Positions 153 to 7,681 are shown, numbered from the stretch's first letter. The stretch: 34,959 bases of DNA from a virus (IMGVR_UViG_3300020160_001427:1-34959), one strand, 5' to 3'. Made by a program: numbers and translations. Notes: a model not told the origin generated them from the letters alone.

Positions 153-666
153 TGGCTAATTCTGAAAATAGTTCTATAGCATAATCAAAACAATGATTAG
201 CTTCTGTGGCCATTGAATCGTCCAGCTTACTACGAAGTGCATCAATCAGTTCTTTACGATTTTCAAATTCGTACATTGTAGAAGTACCAGGAACCACACG
301 TTTTATCATTTGACCGCCATATAGGTCGCCCATATGTCTAACATAAAAGTGAGCTAAAATTTGATGGTCAGTTAAATTTCTTGTGGTGATATACTGAATA
401 TATTTTTGGGTACTAGGATACAATGTATTTTTGTGATTTCCTAAATTTTCAAAATCATACTGAATTTTCTTGTTACGCTCGATACCAGACAAGCCGTTTA
501 AAAGGCCTTTGCTTTCTGCCACTGCTTCAAGTGTTTTATAAACTGCGTGTTGATTATACAAAAAGTCACTGTAAATATTTTCAGGCATTTTGCCAGATAA
601 TAGTAATACAACAAAGCGGTGTTTTTCCGCTTTGTCGTGATTTTCTTTAATAAGGTCTCTTAGCAT
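133..666 (-). CDS. Compact biliverdin-producing heme oxygenase
   Basis: The 177-residue product looks like an all-helical heme oxygenase, which opens heme with O2 and reducing equivalents to give biliverdin, CO and Fe2+. The N-terminal motif HDKAEKH places the likely proximal heme ligand at His10. The distal glycine-rich helix carries GDLYGGQ at residues 113-119, the family signature. It is shorter than typical cyanobacterial or mammalian enzymes (over 200 residues), as expected for a compact phage form. Its ATG shares one base with the stop of the upstream oxygenase (TAATG), with an AAAGG ribosome-binding site 7 bases upstream, so it belongs to the cassette operon. The next gene is a probable bilin reductase, which points to bilin synthesis. 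Release of iron for neighbouring iron enzymes is a second possible role (inference). Confidence 0.9.
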   Translation of the reverse strand: MLRDLIKENHDKAEKHRFVVLLLSGKMPENIYSDFLYNQHAVYKTLEAVAESKGLLNGLSGIERNKKIQYDFENLGNHKNTLYPSTQKYIQYITTRNLTDHQILAHFYVRHMGDLYGGQMIKRVVPGTSTMYEFENRKELIDALRSKLDDSMATEANHCFDYAIELFSELANEYNIQ

Positions 667-1160
667 TACTTAACCTTTGCCATTTTGAAGGCCACAGATA
701 CCCGAAGTTCATTTTTTACGTTTGGAGCTTCTGCACTGTGAAGAATGTTTGCGTCAATCAACACACCAGAGTTGGGAATTGGAGCTACAGACCACTCGTT
801 GACACGATCTTCTCCGCACAAAATTAATCGACCGCCCCAGTTATGTTGCCAGTCTGGATTTGCAAACCAGATAAACGAGTGGGTTACGTTATCGTATGCG
901 TCTGTATGGAAATCTGCGTGCTGCATTATTGTTTGGCCGTTCGCTGCAGACCAAACCAACGAATACTCACCACCAAGAGTCTTTTCAAGTGAAGACCACA
1001 TTTCCTTTAAGATTGGTGTACCCATCATTTGAGCACACCACATGGTTGCACCATGTCGTGCAGATATAGATCCGTATCGCCAATGCGCTTCATATCTGGT
1101 ATATTCCCATGCGCGTCTAGCTAAATCTGCATCGAAAACATCCAAGTATCGGTTAATCAT
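666..1160 (-). CDS. 2OG-Fe(II) dioxygenase (second of the cassette)
   Basis: This 164-residue protein resembles the double-stranded beta-helix 2-oxoglutarate/Fe(II) oxygenases. The candidate metal triad is His85-x-Asp87 (in FHTD) with His141 (in ILHSA), and Arg153 is the probable 2-oxoglutarate anchor. A typical GGRL turn follows at 109-112. His81-x-Asp83 is an alternative first pair. The family hydroxylates or otherwise oxidises proteins, nucleic acids or small molecules; the substrate cannot be read from the sequence. Its start overlaps the radical SAM stop by four bases (ATGA) with an AAAGG site just upstream, and its stop overlaps the heme oxygenase start, so expression is coupled on both sides. 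Confidence 0.8.
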   Translation of the reverse strand: MINRYLDVFDADLARRAWEYTRYEAHWRYGSISARHGATMWCAQMMGTPILKEMWSSLEKTLGGEYSLVWSAANGQTIMQHADFHTDAYDNVTHSFIWFANPDWQHNWGGRLILCGEDRVNEWSVAPIPNSGVLIDANILHSAEAPNVKNELRVSVAFKMAKVK

Positions 1161-2518
1161 GCAGCTACCTTTAACTGTATAACTTTGCGACGTTGCTCAT
1201 CTCGGGCTTCCCAGATATATTTTCTGTCTTTGCGCTGAGGACCTTCGATATGTACAGGCTTAAATCCTGTAATACTCTTAATGGTAGCAGCAAAGAATAC
1301 AACATTATCAGAAAATGCATTATTGCACGAAGCGTTCCATAGTTCACCACTAAGGAACATACACGAACCTTGGCATAATTGAAGCACTGGGCAGTTAGAG
1401 CATTCATCACGATCTGACCAGTGAGTAATAGTATCCAACTTAACGCTTTCAATCTGGTCAACGTGACCAATCTTGTGAGAAACACCGGCAGGATTTGTTC
1501 CAGCAGTAGATACGTTCTGGCAAGTAATAACGTTTCCGTTTAGGTCAACAGCAATATTATTTACCTTGTCCATACCGCATTTTTGTCCAAGCATAGAGTT
1601 AGGAGCACGATCAGCAATCAATTGGCCGAAATTTTGTATTTTTTGATTAATAACCTGAAACTTGTTAGCTTTGCCAGACTCAATATCAGCATAGGCAAGC
1701 TCGCGATATTCAACTTCTTCATTAAGGTTTCCAAGAGAATTTGTTAATCCACCCTCATCATAAGCATCAACAAAGCCACCTTCGCCAATAATCAAGTACT
1801 GTGCATCTTCGCCAAGAATATCTTCAAAATATTTTTGAGCTGCTGCGCGAGAATTATTTGTGCGGTTCATCATGATACTAACGCTAATTCTATGCTCTGG
1901 ACCAAAACGTTTTATAGCTTTTTTGAATATAGCTAATCCTTCTGGTGTTTCAAAAGGATCTGGTCCGCGAACGTGCTGTCCAGGGCCGTCATGGGAAATA
2001 GCAAAACTAAAGCCCATTTCATCCATCCAGTCTAACTTCTCGTCATCTAATAGGCTGCCGTTTGTAATAAGTGAAAAATCAGCATGAGGGTACAGTATAC
2101 GAATACGCTCAGCCAGCGGTTTCATTGTTTTCCAGTAAACAAAGGGTTCGCCACCCCAAAATTCAAAAGTAGTACCATTTCCTTTACCATCGATGCCGCC
2201 ACGATACCATTTAGGCAACTTGGAAACAAACTCTTCAACATTACCTGAATTTGTTTCTTCTGCATGTGGTACAAATCGTTGACTGCAATACTCACACGAG
2301 TAGTTGCAGGATAAGCCCATAGAAATTTTGATATTTGTAAAGTTATATTTAAAACCCTTGCCTACAGGGTATTTTTCGTGGGCATAGTGCATCTTCTGGG
2401 CAGGGGACATAAACAAGTCCTGGCCATTTTCATCAGTAAGAGCAGAGTTACTATTGTCATAGTAGAAGGTCTTAGTGTGACCTTCATCGTTATTTGCCGT
2501 AATTGTAAACTTAGCCAT
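1157..2518 (-). CDS. Radical SAM protein with C-terminal SPASM domain
   Basis: The 453-residue protein carries the radical SAM cluster motif as C71-x3-C75-x2-C78 and the SAM-binding GGEP at 122-125. The C-terminal region holds a SPASM arrangement: a Cys in QKCGMD, a Cys in ITCQN, then C373-x2-C376-x5-C382-x3-C386 and a last Cys at 398. In known enzymes such as anaerobic sulfatase-maturating enzymes and RiPP maturases, this domain binds auxiliary iron-sulfur clusters, and the substrate is usually a peptide or protein. No short precursor peptide is evident next to it. It starts on the stop of the upstream oxygenase (TAATG) and overlaps the next oxygenase by ATGA, so the three enzymes are translationally linked. 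Function as a protein modifier is inference from the SPASM family. Confidence 0.9.
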   Translation of the reverse strand: MAKFTITANNDEGHTKTFYYDNSNSALTDENGQDLFMSPAQKMHYAHEKYPVGKGFKYNFTNIKISMGLSCNYSCEYCSQRFVPHAEETNSGNVEEFVSKLPKWYRGGIDGKGNGTTFEFWGGEPFVYWKTMKPLAERIRILYPHADFSLITNGSLLDDEKLDWMDEMGFSFAISHDGPGQHVRGPDPFETPEGLAIFKKAIKRFGPEHRISVSIMMNRTNNSRAAAQKYFEDILGEDAQYLIIGEGGFVDAYDEGGLTNSLGNLNEEVEYRELAYADIESGKANKFQVINQKIQNFGQLIADRAPNSMLGQKCGMDKVNNIAVDLNGNVITCQNVSTAGTNPAGVSHKIGHVDQIESVKLDTITHWSDRDECSNCPVLQLCQGSCMFLSGELWNASCNNAFSDNVVFFAATIKSITGFKPVHIEGPQRKDRKYIWEARDEQRRKVIQLKVAA

Positions 2519-3204
2519 TAAAATCTCATTTCTGACTGAAGTTCAACATAGCAGTGGCTAGCTACTTGAAAATTTACAACAACAGCAACACGCGTTGTTG
2601 CGCCTCGGTATACATTTGTTTCGTGCCACACGTAAGCAGGATGAACAACAGTCATACCTTGAAAAGGTTCGATAGGGTCAACCTTTTCCCAGTAAGGGTA
2701 GTTAGGGGTGCCTCGTGGATCAAGTAGCAGTAGAGCGTGCGATCCATGTCGATCAGATGCTCCAAGCTCAGGATCACTATCGTCTAGTGCTAAGTAGTGA
2801 ACTAGTACACCATCCATTGCTTGATGATAGTGTGGGTAAGTTCGAGCACCTGGTTCTTGGACGTTACCAAAGCAACGTCCAACAAGTTTTACTTCGTCTG
2901 CTTGCTCAACGTCGAGCGCTTCGCGTAAATACTTGCGGTACATCTGACAAGAAAAACGTTCAAATTCTAGAATGGATTCACGCTCTTCGGGGAACATATC
3001 TAGATCGTTAAACAGGTTGTACGGTGTAACTGCATAAGCCTGTTTTGACTTCATAAACGTATGAAATCCAGGGGAGGTCTCTGCAACTCGTGATCTAGCA
3101 TCTTCACGCTTTATGATGGCGTTGATGAGATCGACACGAACTTTTTCAGGGAGCGGCGTATAGCCTTCCATGATTGGCGTCGACCATAACTTTCTGATTT
3201 GCAT
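2518..3204 (-). CDS. 2OG-Fe(II) oxygenase-like protein (first of the cassette)
   Basis: The 228-residue protein resembles phage 2OG-Fe(II) oxygenases of the TIGR02466 type. A jelly-roll-like region runs from about residue 110 to 212: a His-rich strand HYH at 125-127, DPR at 162-164, a P-x5-H turn with His194 (VWHET), and Arg205 followed by VVVNF. His194 and Arg205 fit the distal metal ligand and the 2-oxoglutarate anchor. The expected HxD pair is replaced by HYH, with Asp131 nearby as a possible carboxylate, so the metal site may be atypical. An AAAAGGA ribosome-binding site lies 5 bases before the ATG. The gene follows the fibre-associated genes after a 21-base gap and leads the enzyme cassette. 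Confidence 0.75.
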   Translation of the reverse strand: MQIRKLWSTPIMEGYTPLPEKVRVDLINAIIKREDARSRVAETSPGFHTFMKSKQAYAVTPYNLFNDLDMFPEERESILEFERFSCQMYRKYLREALDVEQADEVKLVGRCFGNVQEPGARTYPHYHQAMDGVLVHYLALDDSDPELGASDRHGSHALLLLDPRGTPNYPYWEKVDPIEPFQGMTVVHPAYVWHETNVYRGATTRVAVVVNFQVASHCYVELQSEMRF

Positions 3205-3225: not shown

Positions 3226-3702
3226 TTATTGTGGGTTGTTGAATGAAGAATTTGAAGCCTTGAGAAGTCTAGCAGACTCAAGAGGCCCTGAAACTGCGAT
3301 TGCTTTCTGCTCTGATAATAGAACCGATTGTGGTCGCATATAGAAAAGAATATCACAGTTACGAAGAGAAGAAATATTTTTACTCGGAACAAGTAGTCGT
3401 ATAGAGTAGTTATCTTGAAGACTATGTTTAATTAAGTTGGGTATTGTTGTCCCAGCTTCGTGCGCTTTGGCGGTTAAATCCAGCCAGTTAGCTGTTCCTG
3501 TATCGTAAAGATTTTGTTCACCAAAAGAAAGCATACCGCCATATTTATTTAAAACAGTAGAGTTAACTTGCTCAAGTGAAATTGAAGACTGTAGAACCCC
3601 GTCGCAACTAGACCGAAATATCACAGACAGGCGGCTGTCCTCTAGGAGTACTGCCGCCCATTCTAAGCCTGTGTCTATCTCATAACGATAGATTAGGTTC
3701 AT
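3226..3702 (-). CDS. Hypothetical protein downstream of the fibre genes
   Basis: I do not recognise this 158-residue protein. It has no signal peptide or membrane segment and looks like a soluble mixed alpha/beta protein with a strand-rich N-terminus. Its ATG overlaps the preceding gene's stop by four bases (ATGA), so the two are probably co-translated. Position between the long fibre and the enzyme cassette makes a fibre-associated protein, fibre chaperone or small tail protein plausible, but that is context only. Confidence 0.75.
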   Translation of the reverse strand: MNLIYRYEIDTGLEWAAVLLEDSRLSVIFRSSCDGVLQSSISLEQVNSTVLNKYGGMLSFGEQNLYDTGTANWLDLTAKAHEAGTTIPNLIKHSLQDNYSIRLLVPSKNISSLRNCDILFYMRPQSVLLSEQKAIAVSGPLESARLLKASNSSFNNPQ

Positions 3703-4418
3703 TGCACTGTAATTGCGTAGTCTGTTTTACCAGGCCAAAATTTATATCCAGCTTTAATCCTTGCTACAGTACCTGCAGATAACTCTGACAAGTCAAGATG
3801 CACAGCATCTCCGTTTTTAGCACGGGAACGGTTCAAAATGCCTGCAGTAGCCTCAAGATAGACTTCAACATTATCTGGGCAAGACACTGTTAGCTCGGCA
3901 TGTTGACCAACAGAAACCGTAGTTGGACCTGTAAAAGAGATTGGTAGCCAAGTAGCTAAATAATCTGCAAGACGTTCAATTTCTTGGCCCGCAAGCGGCT
4001 GACCATTAACTGTGACTTCAAAATCTGCAGAATCAAAAAAGTACAAAGTACATTCTTCTAGTGAACAGCCGCGATAAGGTGTTAAAATGAAGATTGCTGG
4101 ATATCCAGCAACACCCAAAGAACGATAGACAGCTAGTGCTGAGTCACGTCTTGCAGTATTGTATTCACCAACAAAAGGTGATCCGCGATATCCAACAGAA
4201 ATTGCTGTGGTTTCAGCTACCAGCAGATTGCCGTCTTTTTGACCGACGGCAATCACTCCATGATCTTGCGAATACTTTGAAATGATCTCTGATAGATTTG
4301 CTACTAGTACTGGGGCCTCTTCATCCCCTATAGGCATAGAGAATGTAAGAGTTGACCCAGCTAGGCTAATTGTAGCGCTGCCAGTATAAGAAGCAAGCGT
4401 AGTTTTGATTATATTCAT
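3699..4418 (-). CDS. Hypothetical protein with a C-terminal beta-sandwich-like region
   Basis: The start at 4418 is chosen over an upstream TTG at 4439 because an AAGGA ribosome-binding site lies 7 bases before this ATG, giving 239 residues. The N-terminal 150 residues are unrecognised. The last 80 or so residues alternate short polar and hydrophobic strands around VSVGQHAELTV and look like an Ig-like or related beta-sandwich, common in phage surface proteins. It follows the Cys-tipped fibre gene closely (14-base gap) and overlaps the next gene by four bases. It may attach to or assist that fibre; no direct evidence. Confidence 0.75.
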   Translation of the reverse strand: MNIIKTTLASYTGSATISLAGSTLTFSMPIGDEEAPVLVANLSEIISKYSQDHGVIAVGQKDGNLLVAETTAISVGYRGSPFVGEYNTARRDSALAVYRSLGVAGYPAIFILTPYRGCSLEECTLYFFDSADFEVTVNGQPLAGQEIERLADYLATWLPISFTGPTTVSVGQHAELTVSCPDNVEVYLEATAGILNRSRAKNGDAVHLDLSELSAGTVARIKAGYKFWPGKTDYAITVQ

Positions 4419-4432
4419 GTTTGCTTCCTTTA

Positions 4433-7400
4433 TTAGCAATTACAGTTGCAGTTATAGCGACGTTGACGTACACCTAGTCTAACTGTGCTACCGCTGGAAC
4501 CAATGTAAGGACTTTGGTTTTGACATTGAAATTCACCGCAATTTGTAACTGTACCATCAACTACTAGGCTGTTGTCCACGCAGTTTGCGGTGGCGTTAAA
4601 AAATCCGCTGATACTTGCGCTGCTTACAGCGGTAACGCGACCACGTGCATCAAGAGTCAGCACTGGAACAGCACTGGAACTTCCAATGGTTTGAGCCGAG
4701 ATAATATCGTTAGTTCTGCCGTCAACGTAAGACTTGTTTGCTGCATCACCGTTGTTGACTGGAGTAGGTACATTGGTAACTGCCTGGCTGTTTATGTTCA
4801 GCGTACCAGTCATTGTTCCACCAGCTTTTGGAAGCATGGTATCAGCATATTGCTTTGTTGCCGCATGCAAAGCGTTAACAGGATCAGCATCTAATGTGAT
4901 CTTACCAGTCATAGTACCACCGGTCCGTGCCAGCTTTGTGTCTGCGTATGTCTTAACAGCAAATTCCGTAGGTACCGCCATATTAGAGTTACCACTCATA
5001 GTACCGTCTGATGAGAACTCATTAATTGTCTCACCAAGTTGAGCACCAATAGAACCCAGCTTTAAGCTAGTAAGACCTGCAAGATCAAAAGCGCTAGCAT
5101 TTAGCGTAGCACGTCCAGTAGCTTGATCGATACGGAAGTATTCGCCTACTCGGAAATTACCGTCTTGATCAGTACTTACATAGAATACACGTCCTGGAAA
5201 TACTTCGTCTGTTTCATTACCTTGTGCTGGAGTCTGAGTTGGCTCGCCTGGATAGTTAGTAGTAGTTACACCACCTGTACCAATTGCCAAAAAGTCGTGT
5301 CCAGTCAATCGAATTTGTGAATACTTATAACGTATTGTAACACCAGTACCACCCGCACTTCCAGTGGGTTTTTCTTGTGCTAAAACTACCACGATCCGGC
5401 TACTAGAGTTTACATATGTGCCAGTAACACTTTGAATTACATAACTATATGTATCGCCTGCTATGCTGATTGAAGCACCTGGTTTAGGTATCGAATTTAG
5501 TCCGGTTAGTACAAGCACAAAACCTTTTTGGTTTTCTAGTGCGCCTGATTTTACAGTACCAGTTCCACCACTAGTAAAAGTTAGTGTATTTCCTGAAGTA
5601 AATGTTCCTGTAGGATTTACTACATATACCTTGTCTGAAGAAGTTTGCACGTTGGTAACAATCGCGGTAGCTCCTGAGCTACTTGTAATTGTATCGCCTA
5701 CATTTATAGTACCGCCCTGGTATATAAAGTTTAATTGCTGTCCTACAAGTGTACCAGTAACGGCAGTTTCGTTTGTATCAAATCCGCGAGAAGTAGCTCC
5801 CCAAGTACCGTAACTATTATTACCGTTTAGTGCACGAATAAATCCGCCACCACTTGCAGTATATCCAAAATAGCAATAGTAAGTAAAGCAGCTTACAATC
5901 TCAGACTTACCGCCATCTTTTACCCAGTAACCAATACCATTATCGCTAATAATTGTATAACCATGGAAAATCATGGTTTTAGCACCAGTAGCGTGAACTG
6001 AACCGTCAATTAAGGCACCAATTAATCCTGAGCCAATAGCCGAACATTCTAGAACGTAAGGAGACTTGTGAGTTATGGGACTTGCTGGATTTAGTCGTGC
6101 TACAACGCCTTTGATTGTACTAGTAGTTACATCAGCTGCTGTACTGCCAGGAACCCATCCTGTCATGTCTCTAAAAGTCATCTTGTTCAAGATCGAGCCA
6201 TCGCTCATCAAGAACATCGTAGATTGTGCATTTGGTGTTACACCGTCATCGCATAATCCAGCTGCAGGTTTAACAACAACAGTACGCTGATTATCTCCAA
6301 CAATTGCAGTATTACTAGGAATTGTAATAGGTAGTTGCTCTAAGTATTCACCTGTTTTAACCAAAATAGTGGCTCCTGGGCCACACTGCTGAGTTGCGTA
6401 TTTAATACTTGCAAAAGGAGTACTTAAGTTTTTGCCTCTGCTTGGAGAATTAACACCGTGTGGAGCAACATAAAATACTTTGTCAGATTCAGTAGCTCCA
6501 ATCCAATCAAGGCCGCTACCATTACCTAAAACAGTAAGTGATTGTCCACCATCTCCTGGCTGAATAGCAGGCAGTACGTCGCCAGCACCACTAACAAACA
6601 GGGTCCATTGTCCAGCTGTTTCATCTGTACCAAAGTCACTACTGGAAGTATGTGAGTTAACAGCAATTTTTGCATTACCAGTACTATCTTTTACAATGTC
6701 ATCTTTTAAGTACAGAGTACTTGCTGCCCAGGCACCTCTCCAACGAATACCTGAACCAAGTTTTTGCCAATTACCAGCAGTTTCGTCAGCAGCAAATCCC
6801 GAAGATGTATGTGGCAATAATGCAACATAAGTATTACCACCAACAGAAACTACGTCATCAGTAACATAGTTTGTACTTGTAGACCAATTTCCACGGCTAC
6901 GTAAACCATGTGTAATCTTTACCCAAGTAGCAGGAGTTAGTGCGGGGTTTGTGTTTGAATTGTCAGCTTCAGCTCTATAAGACGAACCACCATAAGTTAC
7001 TGTTTCGCCAATTTTATATGCTGTTGCACTTGACCATGAGCCTATAAATGAGTAACCAGAAATAAACTTATTCCAATAACCTGTATTGGTCGGAAGGTTT
7101 CCAGTAGAATTTACAGTACATTTGTAAATGTTAGCGCCATAAGCAACAAGATCTCCAACAACATAGGCAGTTCCTGAGTTATAAACATCTCGTGCAGAAA
7201 TACCGTCAACTAAGCGGTCCCAAAATGTTGGGTTAGTTGGATTATTGCCAGTAGTGTCTGACTTTGCAATATAAGCAATACCACCAAGAGAAACTACGTC
7301 ATTCTTTTGATATGCAGTTGCGTTATTAAACGCTCCTTCATATTGAATACCGTCAGCAAACTGTGACCAGTAAGTGTTGTTTGGTGGAGTATTACCAGTT

Positions 7401-7681
7401 GTATCAAGTACTGCGATATATACTTTACCGCCGTGTGCTACACCGTCACCAACTTTGTATGCGGTAGCATTACTGAATACGCCTTTAAATTTAATGCCTT
7501 CTACCATCAGTGCCCAATAGGCGGTATTAGTAGGTAGATTGCCAGCCGCTTTAACTACATTTGTGTATACATACACATTGCCACCATATTTTACGATATC
7601 ATTAGATTCGTAAAGTGTTGAGTTAACCCAATCACCAGCAAAGTGGAAGCGTAATTTTCCTAGATCTATTAATTGACTCAT
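4433..7681 (-). CDS. Long tail fibre with seven carbohydrate-binding-like modules and Cys-rich tip
   Basis: The 1,082-residue protein begins with seven tandem modules of about 50 residues (11-369). They share the pattern W-x3-TAY-x3-D-x-V-x3-GG-x-x-Y, ending in YW or W, and resemble CBM5/12 chitin-binding-type modules. From FYVAP at 403 to about 640, a right-handed beta-helix of the pectate-lyase type is likely. The last third has phage fibre repeats (GGTMTG, ATKQYAD, NKSYVDG) typical of trimeric fibres. The C-terminus holds six cysteines in 49 residues (1034, 1048, 1053, 1078, 1080, 1082) and ends RRYNCNCNC. The likely role is trimeric receptor binding with glycan contact and perhaps glycan cleavage. 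It ends 14 bases before the next gene's start and begins one base after the previous gene. Confidence 0.88.
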   Translation of the reverse strand: MSQLIDLGKLRFHFAGDWVNSTLYESNDIVKYGGNVYVYTNVVKAAGNLPTNTAYWALMVEGIKFKGVFSNATAYKVGDGVAHGGKVYIAVLDTTGNTPPNNTYWSQFADGIQYEGAFNNATAYQKNDVVSLGGIAYIAKSDTTGNNPTNPTFWDRLVDGISARDVYNSGTAYVVGDLVAYGANIYKCTVNSTGNLPTNTGYWNKFISGYSFIGSWSSATAYKIGETVTYGGSSYRAEADNSNTNPALTPATWVKITHGLRSRGNWSTSTNYVTDDVVSVGGNTYVALLPHTSSGFAADETAGNWQKLGSGIRWRGAWAASTLYLKDDIVKDSTGNAKIAVNSHTSSSDFGTDETAGQWTLFVSGAGDVLPAIQPGDGGQSLTVLGNGSGLDWIGATESDKVFYVAPHGVNSPSRGKNLSTPFASIKYATQQCGPGATILVKTGEYLEQLPITIPSNTAIVGDNQRTVVVKPAAGLCDDGVTPNAQSTMFLMSDGSILNKMTFRDMTGWVPGSTAADVTTSTIKGVVARLNPASPITHKSPYVLECSAIGSGLIGALIDGSVHATGAKTMIFHGYTIISDNGIGYWVKDGGKSEIVSCFTYYCYFGYTASGGGFIRALNGNNSYGTWGATSRGFDTNETAVTGTLVGQQLNFIYQGGTINVGDTITSSSGATAIVTNVQTSSDKVYVVNPTGTFTSGNTLTFTSGGTGTVKSGALENQKGFVLVLTGLNSIPKPGASISIAGDTYSYVIQSVTGTYVNSSSRIVVVLAQEKPTGSAGGTGVTIRYKYSQIRLTGHDFLAIGTGGVTTTNYPGEPTQTPAQGNETDEVFPGRVFYVSTDQDGNFRVGEYFRIDQATGRATLNASAFDLAGLTSLKLGSIGAQLGETINEFSSDGTMSGNSNMAVPTEFAVKTYADTKLARTGGTMTGKITLDADPVNALHAATKQYADTMLPKAGGTMTGTLNINSQAVTNVPTPVNNGDAANKSYVDGRTNDIISAQTIGSSSAVPVLTLDARGRVTAVSSASISGFFNATANCVDNSLVVDGTVTNCGEFQCQNQSPYIGSSGSTVRLGVRQRRYNCNCNC
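6575..7651 (-). repeat. Seven tandem fibre modules (coding repeat)
   Basis: Seven diverged copies of a roughly 150-base coding unit encode residues 11-369 of the long fibre. Conserved positions are a Trp or aromatic near the start, TAY or TLY, Asp-x-Val, Gly-Gly and a Tyr, and a closing aromatic followed by Gly-Ile/Leu. Copies 6 and 7 share an extra TSS...DETAG insert, which suggests they arose from each other. Confidence 0.8.

Follow-up and report, generated by a model that had tools for sequence, protein, structure and literature searches.

Among the described systems closest to the locus analysed here, the ranthipeptide maturases of the pairs PapB/freyrasin, NxxcB/NxxcA and CteB/SCIFF are radical SAM enzymes with a SPASM domain that act on small, Cys-rich peptides of leader-core type, and in NxxcA a C-beta thioether joins Asn20 and Cys23 (PMC8326336). 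QhpD is a radical SAM/SPASM enzyme whose substrate is a protein subunit and not a secreted peptide; it makes Cys-Asp/Glu thioethers in an intertwined gamma subunit. Anaerobic sulfatase-maturating enzymes (anSMEs) also have protein substrates, and in the YhhB/YhhC cyclophane cassettes and in FlmE/FlmC a radical SAM/SPASM enzyme is paired with a 2OG oxygenase. In the virus contig from IMG/VR studied here, hereafter the window (the whole stretch of 34,959 bases analysed, on which all coordinates are counted), a radical SAM/SPASM enzyme is encoded near a tail fibre that ends in an alternating Cys repeat, and the comparisons below suggest that the enzyme quite probably modifies this Cys tail at the fibre tip.

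Gene organisation of the window

The tail genes of the window are of siphophage type, comprising a major tail protein, a tape measure and a J-like central fibre. The minus-strand order of the enzyme genes is first 2OG oxygenase (OXA), radical SAM/SPASM enzyme, second 2OG oxygenase (OXB) and heme oxygenase, and all four ORFs passed the curated cutoffs in Pfam/NCBIfam profile scans (Table 1). OXA and the radical SAM gene are joined by TAATG (TTTTAATGGC), the radical SAM gene and OXB by ATGA (GCATGATT), and OXB and the heme oxygenase again by TAATG (AGTAATGC); an ATGA overlap also joins U158 to U246. ORFs, junctions and profile scores confirmed what the sequence-only reading had described, namely three overlapping enzyme genes running into a heme oxygenase by TAATG. 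In the nearest relative of the locus, L003, the radical SAM enzyme is 83% identical, and its gene runs into the heme oxygenase gene by an overlap of stop and start codons. Between the window and L003 the dN/dS of OXA was 0.028, and the radical SAM gene showed a pN of 0.106 against a pS of 0.86, with synonymous sites saturated. Judged by this comparison, the enzyme genes of the window are under purifying selection.

Table 1. Features of the cassette and its surroundings in the window.
Feature	Coordinates	Strand	Basis
Tail fibre, 1082 aa, candidate substrate	4433..7681	-	ORF; phrog_9851 1.3e-223; CBM5/12 repeats
NCNCNC codons, fibre C-terminus	4436..4453	-	direct reading; kept in L003
U246, new N-terminal domain and C-terminal Ig/BIG domain	3699..4418	-	homologs, AF2 model
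U158, orphan protein	3226..3702	-	no Pfam/PHROG match; window and L003 only
First 2OG-Fe(II) oxygenase (OXA), 228 aa	2518..3204	-	2OG-FeII_Oxy_5 29.3 bits, cutoff 27
Radical SAM/SPASM enzyme, 453 aa	1157..2518	-	Radical_SAM 36.2 bits (cutoff 29.5); TIGR04085 34.6 bits (cutoff 27)
Second 2OG-Fe(II) oxygenase (OXB), 164 aa	666..1160	-	2OG-FeII_Oxy_3 31.2 bits, cutoff 27
Heme oxygenase, 177 aa	133..666	-	Pfam Heme_oxygenase 61.5 bits, cutoff 23

The alternating Cys tail

The key to the locus, overlooked in the sequence-only reading, is that the fibre ends in YNCNCNC (final residues RQRRYNCNCNC); as a whole it matches the tail fibre profile phrog_9851 (Table 1). In L003 the NCNCNC tail is retained, encoded with synonymous differences and ended by a stop codon of another type. 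The general form of the repeat is (Asn/Asp/Ala-Cys)n, and the candidate tip proteins elsewhere are 80-400 aa long and mostly fibre-related. The 1082-aa window fibre is not the small precursor with a leader that characterises RiPP systems. Other phages have one to three small tip proteins in place of the long fibre, and about 13 loci have exactly three small Cys-tail proteins in tandem, such as the paralogs upstream of the radical SAM gene in L006, L045, L060, L133, L140, L153, L158 and L167. Three tandem paralogs may form a heterotrimeric tip.

The NCNC spacing is that of Asn-x-x-Cys, as in the ranthipeptide NxxcA. Asn occupies the first two repeat positions in 85% and 78% of tails and the last position in only 49%, which fits an Asn-x-x-Cys scheme, where the last Asn cannot be an acceptor, without proving it. 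One tail group has Ala in place of Asn (CACACACA), and because some tails use Ala it is doubtful that Asn is a required acceptor.

In some relatives a Hint domain, rather than a stop codon, comes immediately after the repeat. In Achromobacter phage JWF the fibre sequence RQNCNCDCNCNCS precedes the Hint Cys, the repeat being QNCNCDCNCNCS and the directly following CFPAGTMVLMADGT the start of the Hint domain. In phage 2-1 the Cys repeat likewise runs directly into Hint (Hom_end_hint 5.3e-12), and Burkholderia paludis MSh1 as well as several Rhodospirillaceae genomes share this layout. In Hint domains of this type the cut falls ahead of the first Cys. Here it would leave the Cys repeat as the C-terminus, an end that elsewhere is set by the stop codon.

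The radical SAM/SPASM enzyme

The core of the cassette is the radical SAM/SPASM enzyme. Across 37 relatives there is no change in its CX3CX2C motif (C71, C75, C78), in GGEP or in any of the seven SPASM cysteines, and motif and Radical_SAM score together place it in the radical SAM superfamily. The SPASM cysteines follow the motif CX9-15GX4C - CX2CX5CX3C - C as C314-X13-G328-X4-C333, C373xxC376x5C382xxxC386 and C398. The nearest NCBIfam profiles include PapB, geopeptide, nif11, QhpD and anSME, all with scores far below cutoff: for PapB (NF047865) 53.6 bits in the window and 74.3 in the best relative against an equivalog cutoff of 340, and for QhpD 47 bits against 453. On these profiles and motifs the window enzyme is placed in a new subfamily near the thioether-forming enzymes. 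No RRE model matched the enzyme or its neighbours in the Pfam/NCBIfam scans, such an absence of match being weak evidence. A viperin/pVip antiviral enzyme was considered and rejected, NF038283 giving 44.6 against 180 bits and the PADLOC pVip match covering the shared radical SAM core only.

The closest full-length solved relatives are the anSMEs 4k36-4k39, and the JWF enzyme is annotated as an anaerobic sulfatase-maturating enzyme. Both would suit an oxidation of tail cysteines to formylglycine, giving a tip with reactive aldehydes. The residue after the second SPASM Cys, which we take to be the position of the anSME catalytic Asp, is however an invariant Gln334, and one Cys of what is presumably the AuxI ligand set is missing relative to anSMEs. 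Because the catalytic Asp is missing, anSME-type formylglycine formation is disfavoured; the tail also lacks the sulfatase CxPxR motif, and the anSME profile TIGR03942 scored 44.1 bits against a cutoff of 349, so that this chemistry is highly improbable.

Epimerisation, or carbon-carbon and other crosslinks in place of thioethers, would agree with the strict pattern at every second residue, which suits alternating D/L residues, and the YydG epimerase is a distant structural match. The residue that does not vary is nevertheless Cys, from which thioethers are usually made, and the enzyme's neighbours among the profiles form thioethers, which makes these products unlikely. That the product is a thioether, a proposal drawn from analogy with those neighbours, is nearly an even call.

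Linkage between tail and enzyme

About 260 related loci were collected from viral (IMG/VR) and genome scans, and the statistics were taken from 89 loci with a radical SAM score of at least 500 and enough flank. A Cys-repeat protein was found within 6.5 kb on the same strand in 84 of these 89 loci. Loci are non-independent samples and the counts are partly redundant; after collapsing at 85% identity the tail was present in 66 of 75 loci, spread over the whole radical SAM tree. Among the same-strand ORFs of at least 100 aa in the IMG/VR radical SAM loci, 66 of 1164 were tailed, and all but one of these (65/66) lay within 6.5 kb upstream of the radical SAM gene, against a background of 1/1074 ORFs in control loci. 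Several apparently tail-negative loci have a repeat that is farther off, internal or ahead of another domain, and near the radical SAM genes of L039 and L204 no tail was found. Distant relatives of the enzyme, from Ramlibacter and Bacteriovoracaceae, mostly lack the tail; those of L240, L241, L256, L258, L260, L265 and L266 stand in a setting without fibre genes, and L266 encodes a 62-aa peptide ending GACACACGGPCY.

Inversely, a DNA pattern for NCNCNC followed by a stop codon, blind to the radical SAM gene, returned 106 stretches. Of these, 41 held an in-frame ORF of at least 60 aa with at least 4.5 kb downstream, and a radical SAM gene followed on the same strand in 37. The four exceptions were proteins of other kinds, of 185 aa (L129), 193 aa (L123) and 203 aa (L134 and L160) on contigs without a radical SAM gene. 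Three other protein families thus carry the tail without the enzyme gene, so that NCNCNC can serve other purposes as well. Where fibre-type tails showed no radical SAM gene, they lay on short contigs or at contig ends, the longer contigs of the set containing the gene.

The fibre itself served as a control. Homologs of the window fibre occur in 57 loci, one of which shares the tip, and only that one has the tail, the radical SAM gene and U246; all three are absent from the remaining 56 homologous fibres, whose tips differ. Tip, tail, partner and enzyme therefore behave as an exchangeable cassette.

The association of tail and enzyme across these sequences is strong, and the chemistry would follow by inference. 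Very probably the Cys tail is the substrate of the enzyme. An unmodified tail might instead form a metal- or Fe-S-binding tip, a form of the iron-bearing fibre or 'Trojan horse' model, the enzyme acting on another protein or helping to load metal. Metal binding by CxCxC repeats is conceivable, and His runs such as FDPHHHHNNCTNCNCNC are present in several tips; T4 gp37 has known HxH iron sites, which have also been proposed for marine phages (PMC11705849), and the NCNCNC proteins without the enzyme also speak for such a function. Against it, the SPASM enzyme is tied to the tail nearly always and is absent from the tail-less homologous fibres, and peptides are the typical substrates of SPASM enzymes with these ligands; an unmodified metal tip is improbable. 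The least probable alternative is that the three enzymes form an operon for auxiliary metabolism or host takeover, with host proteins as targets, and stand beside the fibre genes by chance. 2OG and heme oxygenases are common auxiliary genes of phages, and phrog_81 is filed as auxiliary, but the enzyme is linked to its neighbour's tail in both search directions and is absent where the fibre homologs have no tail.

Partner and accessory genes

Among the 89 loci, U246 or an alternative partner family was present in 77, a 2OG oxygenase in 50, a PP-loop enzyme in 22 and a heme oxygenase in 1. Homologs of U246, for which the ATG at 4418 was taken as start and not the TTG at 4439, were found in 162 loci despite about 20% identity, its linkage to the radical SAM gene resting on one search direction and the fibre control. 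The AF2 model (pLDDT 87) has a C-terminal Ig/BIG domain matching intimin-type domains (Z 10.0) and the phage Chi neck protein (Z 9.1). For the N-terminal half Foldseek gave no match below E 0.001, and a second look gave SPP1 gp22 at Z 5.3, too weak to rely on. With an Ig/BIG domain in one half and no strong match in the other, U246 was rejected as an enzyme; the model suggests a virion or tip-assembly protein. U158 matched nothing in Pfam or PHROG, was seen among the related loci in the window and L003 only, and is probably lineage-specific.

OXA is a frequent accessory of the cassette. His125 and His194 are invariant among 27 relatives of its family, and these conserved metal histidines together with the profile scores of both proteins (Table 1) identify 2OG-Fe(II) oxygenases. 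OXB has HTD, a distal His and an Arg, and weakly matches the FlmC and YhhC profiles (24.9 against 240 and 17.1 against 150 bits). No OXB homolog is present in L003, and OXB is optional. The heme oxygenase, a cotranscribed neighbour, is linked to the radical SAM gene only in the window and L003, such linkage being seen almost never; it was rejected as a part of the cassette, to which it probably does not belong. The heme oxygenases of the window and L003 (there from about 11358) are 50% identical, far less than the radical SAM enzymes.

The PP-loop enzyme never occurred together with an oxygenase in the 89-locus set, and L090, which has less flank, has both. On T4-like contigs a solute-binding protein of DctP type, with no obvious signal peptide, and an ATPase of the PP-loop kind (SGGIDS) lie beside the radical SAM gene (L014, 11690-12634 and 12689-13741). 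An aspartyl/asparaginyl beta-hydroxylase domain protein (2.4e-9) lies near it in L082 (13285-14058), in a group whose Cys repeats are Asn-rich.

With no second oxygenase in the nearest relative, the enzyme trio was rejected as a functional unit. The sequence-only reading had stressed two oxygenases flanking one radical SAM enzyme, and this emphasis was misplaced: roughly half of the loci have a 2OG oxygenase, and few have one of the OXB family. It had also held that a block without conservation would speak against its proposal: the trio indeed is not conserved, but the underlying cassette is. The conserved parts are the radical SAM enzyme, the Cys-tailed fibre and the Ig-domain partner, and the trio of the window is a local variant of this fibre-tip maturation cassette. 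The general idea, that a virion protein is modified by this system, has good support, and no homolog with a known unrelated substrate emerged, the enzyme reaching no NCBIfam equivalog cutoff. A peptide encoded outside the window, which had been offered as a substrate, is not needed, the likely substrate being the fibre tail.

Proposed maturation of the fibre tip

In the proposed scheme the alternating repeat would be placed at the C-terminus of the tip by a stop codon or by predicted Hint cleavage. The radical SAM/SPASM enzyme would cleave SAM at its CX3CX2C cluster and modify the repeat, an auxiliary Fe-S cluster most likely taking up a tail thiol at its open site. The Cys sulfur would become attached to a carbon of the third residue before it (Asn-x-x-Cys), giving small thioether rings. 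Where present, a 2OG oxygenase would hydroxylate tail or tip, and the chances that it acts on this same region are even. The Ig-domain partner would present or cap the tip. The mature tip would serve host recognition or adsorption, and a role in adsorption is rather probable. The wider proposal, that widespread phages and prophages staple the receptor-contact tips of their fibres with enzyme-made thioether rings and exchange tip, partner and maturase as a cassette, is put forward tentatively.

If the scheme is true, phage adhesion tips could be chemically matured as well as folded, the sequence would not suffice to understand receptor binding, and tips produced in the absence of the maturase would be incorrect. 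It would be a virion maturation step for which no described precedent was found, in which many freshwater and marine phages modify the tip that touches the host, and radical SAM/SPASM chemistry would gain a new class of protein-scale substrate. In the open literature searched, no earlier description was found of NCNCNC tails, of phage radical SAM enzymes with tail fibres or of Hint domains in fibres. Close relatives of the enzyme occur in only JWF and 2-1 among 50,697 phage records, a rarity that may explain why the cassette was overlooked. The finding offers a specific candidate substrate, a searchable sequence tag and two cultured phages, the Achromobacter phages JWF and 2-1.

Comparison with known systems

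The ranthipeptide maturases resemble the window enzyme in combining radical SAM and SPASM domains and in their Cys-rich substrates, PapB being the best profile. They differ in that the window scores lie far below their cutoffs and that the window enzyme would act on the C-terminal end of a virion fibre. QhpD is alike in acting on protein scale, but is also distant by profile score, and its substrate is not a C-terminal repeat. The anSMEs share protein substrates and the closest full-length structures with the window enzyme, in which Gln stands in place of the catalytic Asp, the AuxI set is one Cys short and no sulfatase motif accompanies the substrate. The YhhB/YhhC cassettes and FlmE/FlmC offer the same pairing of enzyme and 2OG oxygenase, and OXB matches FlmC and YhhC at scores well under cutoff; their substrates are different. 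The Hint domains of JWF, 2-1 and the relatives in bacterial genomes share with bacterial intein-like domains a CFPAGT start, here directly after the Cys repeat. Their putative role in these fibres, unlike that of the intein-like domains, would be to expose the Cys repeat, which the window fibre carries without Hint.
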